DNA of 64,000 nt from Methanosarcina barkeri MS (GTDB taxonomy: Archaea; Halobacteriota; Methanosarcinia; Methanosarcinales; Methanosarcinaceae). The DNA lies in NCBI RefSeq assembly GCF_000970025.1, contig NZ_CP009528.1, positions 372,001 to 436,000 of the forward strand, read 5' to 3'. This document shows positions 23,703-61,429 of this stretch, in pieces (within the stretch, counting starts at the first letter, position 1; each line of letters opens with the position of its first letter). The position numbers and the translations under genes were made by a program. Below the pieces are notes generated by a model. The model had not been told where the DNA came from. It made no database searches and saw only the letters and a list, made by a program, of their open reading frames with translations.

Positions 23703-23892
23703 CATACGTCTTCGGTTAAGCGAGAAATCGTGACAAATTGCACCAATTTCCTCAACATTTATCAAATATTTCTATAAATTATGACTTGGAACCGAGTATC
23801 GATTTCATGTACATAGGCCAAAATCTAAGGCTAATTTCTAATGCAAAATCGATAGCTTTCAGGCAAGAAAATTCTTTAACCGATGGCCAATA
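23703..23892 (+). mobile_element. 190-bp MITE, copy A
   Basis: Starts CATACGTCTTCGGTTAAG and ends in the inverse of CATCGGTTAA, forming terminal inverted repeats. It is flanked by AATTCAATTC (23693-23702) and AATTCAATTT (23893-23902), a 10-bp target duplication with one mismatch. No coding capacity. Confidence 0.88.
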
Positions 23893-24684: not shown

Positions 24685-24873
24685 CATGCGTCTTCGGTTA
24701 AGTGAGGAATCATGACAAATTGTATCAATTTCTCAACGTTTACCTAATAGTTTGATAAGTTCTAAGCTGGAATTGGGCATCGATTTTACGTAAATAGGCC
24801 TAATCTTTAAGCAGGATTTTGGTACAAAATCGATATCTTTCAGGCAAGAAAATTTCTTAACCGATGATCAATG
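24685..24873 (+). mobile_element. 190-bp MITE, copy B
   Basis: Starts CATGCGTCTTCGGTTAAG and ends CTTAACCGATGATCAATG. Flanks are AAACGCTCTT (24675-24684) and AAACCCTCTT (24874-24883), nine of ten matching. It is the most diverged copy internally. Confidence 0.88.
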
Positions 24874-32726: not shown

Positions 32727-33106
32727 AATATCTGTTTTAAATGATTTACATATTTATGAACTATTCCAAAACTAACTTTTTCTTGATCGGTGGGATTTTA
32801 AAGATCATTTTTAGAATTAGATATTCAATCATGCGTCTTCGGTTAAGCGAAGAATCGTGACAAATTGCGTCAATATCCTCAACATTTATTAAATACTTTA
32901 ATAGATCCTGAGCTTGAACTTGGTATCGATTTCATGTAAAGAGACCATCATTTAAGGTCGGTTTCTAATGCAAAATCAGTAGCTATCAAGCAAGAAAATT
33001 CCTTAACCGATGACCAATGGATATTCAATTGGTCACTCAAATACAAGACTTAAAAAAGCAAATTTTGAGTCTTGAAATAGCTCAAAAGAAAAAAGGTGGA
33101 AACTGC
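32727..33106. other. intergenic region containing MITE copy C
   Basis: No gene. It holds MITE copy C (32830-33019) with perfect 10-bp flanking duplications between the KAP gene's 5' side and the 3' end of the surface-protein gene. Confidence 0.6.
32830..33019 (+). mobile_element. 190-bp MITE, copy C, perfect target duplication
   Basis: Starts CATGCGTCTTCGGTTAAG and ends CTTAACCGATGACCAATG. It is flanked on both sides by GATATTCAAT (32820-32829 and 33020-33029), ten of ten identical, which fixes the element boundaries and length (190 bp). Confidence 0.93.
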
Positions 33107-60900: not shown

Positions 60901-60915
60901 AAACAGAAGCTTTTT

Positions 60916-61105
60916 CATTGGTCATCGGTTAAGGAATTTTCTTGCCTGAAAGCTATCGATTTTGCACTGGAAGTCAGCCTTATATTTTGGCCTATTTACA
61001 TGAAATCAATACCTTGTTCCAGCTCATAACTTATTAAATTATTTGGCAAATGTTGAGGACATTGACTTAATTTGTCACGAATTCCCACTTAACCGAAGAC
61101 GCATT
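60916..61105 (-). mobile_element. 190-bp MITE, copy D (inverted)
   Basis: Starts CATTGGTCATCGGTTAAG and ends in the inverse of TGCGTCTTCGGTTAAG. Flanks GAAGCTTTTT (60906-60915) and GAAGTTTTTT (61106-61115) form a 10-bp target duplication with one mismatch. The copy is inserted in the opposite orientation to the other three. Confidence 0.9.
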
Positions 61106-61429
61106 GAAGTTTTTTTAATATTCTCATCCTTTCCGTTCTAGCTCATCCATAACATATTTTTTTGCCCACAAATTCATATTTTTCTTCACCTGGCATTATT
61201 TTTCTCTGGCTTATCAAAAAATGCTATTTCAGGTACATCTGGAGATTATGCTCAAAAGTAGGCAAAAAAAGCGTTTTCAAGTAGACAGGCAGAATATCCT
61301 AAAAGTAAACAATCTAAATATATATTTTTTTAAGGTGATGCCGAGAATTAAAAGAAAAAGTACTGAGGACAGCAAAAACCAGAAGATCAAGAATAAGAAC
61401 CTTAATTAGCTAAAAAACTACAAAACTTT

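Follow-up and report, generated by a model that had tools for sequence, protein, structure and literature searches.

A 190-bp MITE family of Methanosarcina barkeri with a probable partner among ISH8-type insertion sequences

Four copies of a short inverted-repeat element

The window (the whole 64-kb stretch of Methanosarcina barkeri MS DNA that was analysed) contains four copies, A to D, of a MITE, of which copy C is the element under study (Table 1). An earlier note, made from the sequence alone, had reported all four and their flanking 10-bp duplications (10/10 at C, 9/10 at A, B and D), and both the copies and the duplications were found as it described; a sequence search revealed no fifth copy within the window. 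Pairwise identity among the copies is 78-84%. The terminal inverted repeats are 18 bp long and imperfect (15/18 matching), and such 18-mer ends would turn up by chance 0.03-0.07 times in the window. The ends that the note considered common to all four copies are indeed conserved, but slightly less uniform than claimed: copy A begins with CATACG and ends with TATTGGCC, copy B ends with CATTGATC, and copy D starts with AATGCG. At a length of approximately 190 bp the MITE is below the limit of about 500 bp for such elements, and it has no transposase gene: the open reading frame list of the window shows no frame of at least 80 amino acids inside copies A to D, and an 88-aa frame at position 33017 overlaps just the final 3 bp of copy C. 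A transposase associated with the MITE ends is absent from the window, as had also been noted, and was located elsewhere in the host genome.

Table 1. Positions of MITE copies and associated features in the window
Feature	Position	Strand	Remarks
MITE copy A	23703..23892	+	flanks aattcaattc / aattcaattt, 9/10
MITE copy B	24685..24873	+	flanks aaacgctctt / aaaccctctt, 9/10
Degenerate copy of second dispersed repeat	32758..33083		ends GAGCCTATCCC; interrupted by MITE copy C
Target duplication of copy C, left (10 bp)	32820..32829		GATATTCAAT
MITE copy C (element under study)	32830..33019	+	gatattcaat in both flanks, 10/10
Internal inverted motif, arm 1	32924..32932		TATCGATTT; from alignment of diverse copies
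Internal inverted motif, arm 2	32973..32981		degenerate in copy C, AAATCAGTA; from alignment of diverse copies
Target duplication of copy C, right (10 bp)	33020..33029		GATATTCAAT
Target duplication of copy D, left (10 bp)	60906..60915		9/10 vs right
MITE copy D, inverted	60916..61105	-	duplication 9/10; orthologous site empty in five species
Target duplication of copy D, right (10 bp)	61106..61115		9/10 vs left

Empty sites and nested insertions

In five other species, the sequences that flank copy D run on without a break at the orthologous site, which has a single copy of the target and no MITE; these are the empty-site alleles in relatives that the earlier note had named as confirmation of mobility. 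Copy C interrupts a second dispersed repeat, other copies of which, in the host genome and in relatives, are unoccupied where copy C sits. Nesting also occurs in the opposite direction: one MITE copy (L169) is interrupted by a member of the second repeat family, and another (L171) has a different small inverted-repeat element inserted close to its left end. The second repeat is approximately 138 bp long with inverted ends GAGCCTATCCCRAAAC and is numerous in Methanosarcina genomes (L157-L162, L169). It is possibly the IS5-linked 140-bp MITE that has been listed for M. acetivorans (ISMma12; PMC3852290).

Family size, duplications and target sites

At least 40 MITE matches are dispersed over the host genome (4.57 Mb, two contigs); all of the best 40 scored candidates are matches, and 36 of them span at least 176 of the 190 bp. 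Matches are present in 26 of 31 congeneric genomes, and the search of the host and other Methanosarcina genomes with the consensus, which had been suggested as a check, returned many copies with conserved ends. Within the host's family, matches to the 190-bp consensus occur in 46 of 112 genomes and 9 of 14 genera; 10/10 duplications flank several copies from two genera other than Methanosarcina.

When the left and right flanks of 58 full-length copies from several species were compared at varying lengths k, flank identity peaked at exactly k = 10 (0.805, versus 0.28-0.44 at other k). Direct flank repeats of at least 9/10 were found at 37 of these 58 copies, versus 0.4% of mismatched flank pairs taken from different copies. 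The absence of duplications from other genomic copies, which by the earlier note would have spoken against the family, is not what was observed. The target sites have a symmetrical AT-rich preference, R-A-T-N4-W-T-Y (A/G-A-T on the left, A/T-T-T/C on the right). A sister family, whose MITEs are 186 bp long and have the ends CATTTGTATTCGGTTAAG / CATTGGTCATCGGTTRAG, is represented at L213:3001-3186, where the duplication is 10/10, and at L095:626-811; by eye, it has a recognisable version of the internal inverted pair described below.

The ERIC repeats of enterobacteria are short non-coding sequences of fixed length that are conserved across genera of one family, and the MITE resembles them in all of these respects. 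Both its length and its internal dyad are conserved across genera, and the DNA strand of the consensus folds better than shuffled sequences (z -3.6), features that a conserved regulatory or structural repeat, whether an RNA element or ERIC-like, would also have in place of a transposable element. Such an identity is nevertheless highly improbable: unlike ERIC repeats, the MITE has a transposase partner and duplicates 10 bp of its target, and insertion is directly evident from these duplications and from the empty sites. A conserved RNA was rejected as a candidate, the RNA folding of a 144-nt part being at chance level (z -0.17), with no covariation (a compensatory change in 1 of 11 predicted pairs) and no Rfam match for the MITE. 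As the sole explanation of the family, a regulatory or structural repeat is refuted.

The partner insertion sequence and its transposase

A scan of the host genome for the MITE ends detected end pairs approximately 1450 bp apart. These pairs delimit copies of a single insertion sequence, 1453 bp long (range 1445-1453), whose ends, CATGCGTCATCGGTTAAG / CATTGGTCATCGGTTAAG, are nearly the same as those of the MITE. A full-length insertion sequence with inverted ends like those of the MITE, which the earlier note had recommended looking for, is therefore present in the host genome, and its duplications are of the same 10-bp length. Three host copies are 99.7-99.9% identical, and perfect duplications (aattacgttt, aattgaaata, gatatttttc, cataaaaatc) flank copies in the host genome; across genomes, 15 of 27 copies have 10/10 duplications and one more has 9/10. 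Together with the recurring 10-bp duplications of the MITE, its empty sites and its multicopy genome matches, the partner insertion sequence supports the interpretation of the earlier note that the MITE is a non-autonomous transposed element. Two shorter loci, L075 (1143 bp) and L076 (848 bp), are versions of the insertion sequence that have lost internal parts; their flanks do not match, and they are probably immobile or rearranged.

The transposase of the insertion sequence is a 435-aa DDE protein that matches the NCBIfam model IS4_1 (248.5 bits, cutoff 115) and the Pfam family DDE_Tnp_1 (1.3e-21), and the YREK motif (Y-2-R-3-E-6-K) can be read directly in its sequence as YEARWDIELLFKELK; no sequence-related solved structure was found at E<=1. 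Within the IS4 family, the ISH8 subgroup is characterized by a length of 1400-1800 bp, ends of the form CAT-----------T, the YREK motif and 10-bp direct repeats (PMC2266710). Most intact copies of the partner are 1441-1454 bp long with CAT ends (CATGCGTCATCGGTT), fitting the length range and the end pattern, and the T at position 15, the YREK motif, the duplication length, the size (1453 bp) and the euryarchaeal host are likewise shared, so that the partner appears by published features to match the ISH8 subgroup. Whereas ISH8 has been described as lacking apparent target specificity (PMC2266710), both the MITE and its partner prefer R-A-T-N4-W-T-Y sites, those of the insertion sequence being AT-rich and similar to this pattern, although less strict than those of the MITE.

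The MITE and the insertion sequence have 18-23 bp in common at each end, while the MITE interior of approximately 150 bp is unrelated to the insertion sequence, and position 9 of the left end is T in the MITE but A in the insertion sequence. The MITE is very probably moved by the ISH8-subgroup transposase encoded in the same genome, which would act on it in trans. The transposase most likely binds the common ends of approximately 18-20 bp. Cut-and-paste transposition has been described for the IS4-family elements IS10 and IS50, and by analogy the enzyme would then cut the MITE out; its insertion at an AT-rich R-A-T-N4-W-T-Y site would leave the 10-bp duplication behind.

The unrelated interior and the single differing position in the terminal inverted repeat would also fit a MITE that belongs to a different autonomous element, lost or unsampled, with similar ends, the present insertion sequence being just a cousin. 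The same can be said of the dyad in the interior and the subterminal stretch on the right, which are conserved across genera and absent from the insertion sequence, and of some MITE-rich genomes that have only transposase fragments. However, no autonomous element with the subterminal or internal sequence of the MITE was found among the insertion-sequence loci of many Methanosarcina genomes or at solo MITE right ends, and archaeal MITEs usually have only the terminal <20 nt in common with their partners (PMC3852290). An origin from a different element is considered improbable, and mobilization by the resident ISH8-type transposase is preferred.

At E<=1e-40 the transposase was detected in 22 genomes of four genera, and the transposase-encoding loci in named genomes are all from Methanosarcina (21/21), in keeping with the genus of the host. 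With matches in 46 genomes of nine genera, the MITE was detected more widely than the enzyme. Across the 31 congeneric genomes, MITE abundance correlates with transposase abundance (Spearman rho 0.80, p 6e-8, ignoring kinship and with some MITE counts being lower bounds). In several genomes with MITEs no intact transposase gene was found; among these, G013, G014, G026 and G030 contain full-length MITEs with 91-95% identity to the consensus. A lost or different partner is therefore possible for some lineages.

A survey by Filee et al. in 2007 reportedly lists 26 families of archaeal MITEs. In the literature searched, the 2007 archaeal survey and ISfinder aside, no earlier report of an IS4 MITE of Methanosarcina was found, and among the Methanosarcina entries in the 2013 list (Table 4 of PMC3852290) there is none with IS4 ends, a length of 190 bp or 10-bp repeats. 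Like the present family, the MITEs of Methanosarcina and other archaea in that table are short and multicopy, with inverted repeats that match an autonomous insertion sequence and an unrelated interior, and some have direct repeats. The present family is a further example of this already published kind, the Methanosarcina MITEs. It is an ordinary kind of element, and its reading as a MITE with an ISH8-type partner, apparently intact and encoded in the host genome, is well supported.

A conserved internal inverted motif

An alignment of 36 diverse MITE copies, in which those of other genera were scored against the Methanosarcina consensus, revealed an inverted pair in the interior, TATCGATTT at consensus positions 95-103 and AAATCGATA at positions 144-152. 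Copies from the other genera agree with the Methanosarcina consensus better at the MITE ends (identity 0.92-0.94) and in the two internal arms (0.92 and 0.97) than from arm 2 to the right end (0.85) or elsewhere in the interior (0.65). The hexamer ATCGAT has no occurrence in the insertion sequence. Because RNA folding gives no support and Rfam no match, a role of the internal pair at the DNA level is more likely. Common descent and recent transfer between genera may account in part for the conservation of the motif, but they leave the contrast between the internal segments and the rest of the interior unexplained.

A copy with a piece of a host gene

L079 (G000:C2:3088907-3089404) is a 498-bp MITE copy between perfect duplications (aattctagtc), and consists of a complete MITE in which an insert of 309 bp separates positions 68 and 69. 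At 95% identity, this insert matches another locus of the same genome, L109 (G000:C2:3153300-3153621), a single-copy donor comprising the upstream region and the 5' part of a host DUF4325 (STAS-like) gene that has orthologues in relatives. Compared with all aligned orthologues, the coding part of the insert has deletions of 6 and 3 bp, and L079 retains an open chimeric frame of 103 codons that runs from DUF4325 into MITE sequence, where it ends. A template switch while the gap left by excision was being repaired may have given rise to such a structure.

The perfect 10-bp duplications of L079, and the frame that runs from DUF4325 into the MITE, would also be expected if the MITE had been derived by deletion from a longer DUF4325 cassette, similar to the mobile insertion cassettes of Bacillus. 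This derivation is barely credible, as the 309 bp are 95% identical to the DUF4325 locus that the genome itself has in a single copy, and no other MITE copy contains the DUF4325 piece. Both halves of the MITE are complete in L079, and therefore the gene piece is an addition and not a remnant; the cassette origin was rejected, the extra DNA being traceable to the resident host locus.

Mobile insertion cassettes (MIC231-like) and Pack-type elements resemble L079 in having DNA of host genes between their ends, no transposase and perfect duplications on the outside, whereas the gene piece in L079 is truncated and L079 is present as one copy only. It is the single cargo copy of its type among the 31 genomes, with no sign of having been mobilized with its cargo, and because there is only one copy it is not classed as a mobile insertion cassette or Pack-MITE. 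Further gene captures were not found in G001, G003, G004 and G030, where the inserts are small inverted-repeat elements or short tandem duplications.

Significance

The association of a widespread non-coding repeat of methanogens with a specific transposase makes trans-mobilization testable in the genetically tractable Methanosarcina. The clean capture of a host upstream region and gene fragment raises the question of how archaeal MITEs gain cargo, and the family-wide constraint on the internal motif raises the question of what a prokaryotic MITE requires beyond its ends. One tentative answer, on the whole unlikely, is that the interior is more than filler: the internal dyad and the right subterminal 20 bp would be under selection as a cis-acting site, on which a host factor acts or the transposase assembles. 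Such a site would keep the 190-bp MITE recognizable in nine genera and allow it to survive in genomes in which no intact transposase gene was detected. A further part of this reading is that the MITE also captures host genes. If so, the family would be an archaeal counterpart of gene-capturing MITEs.
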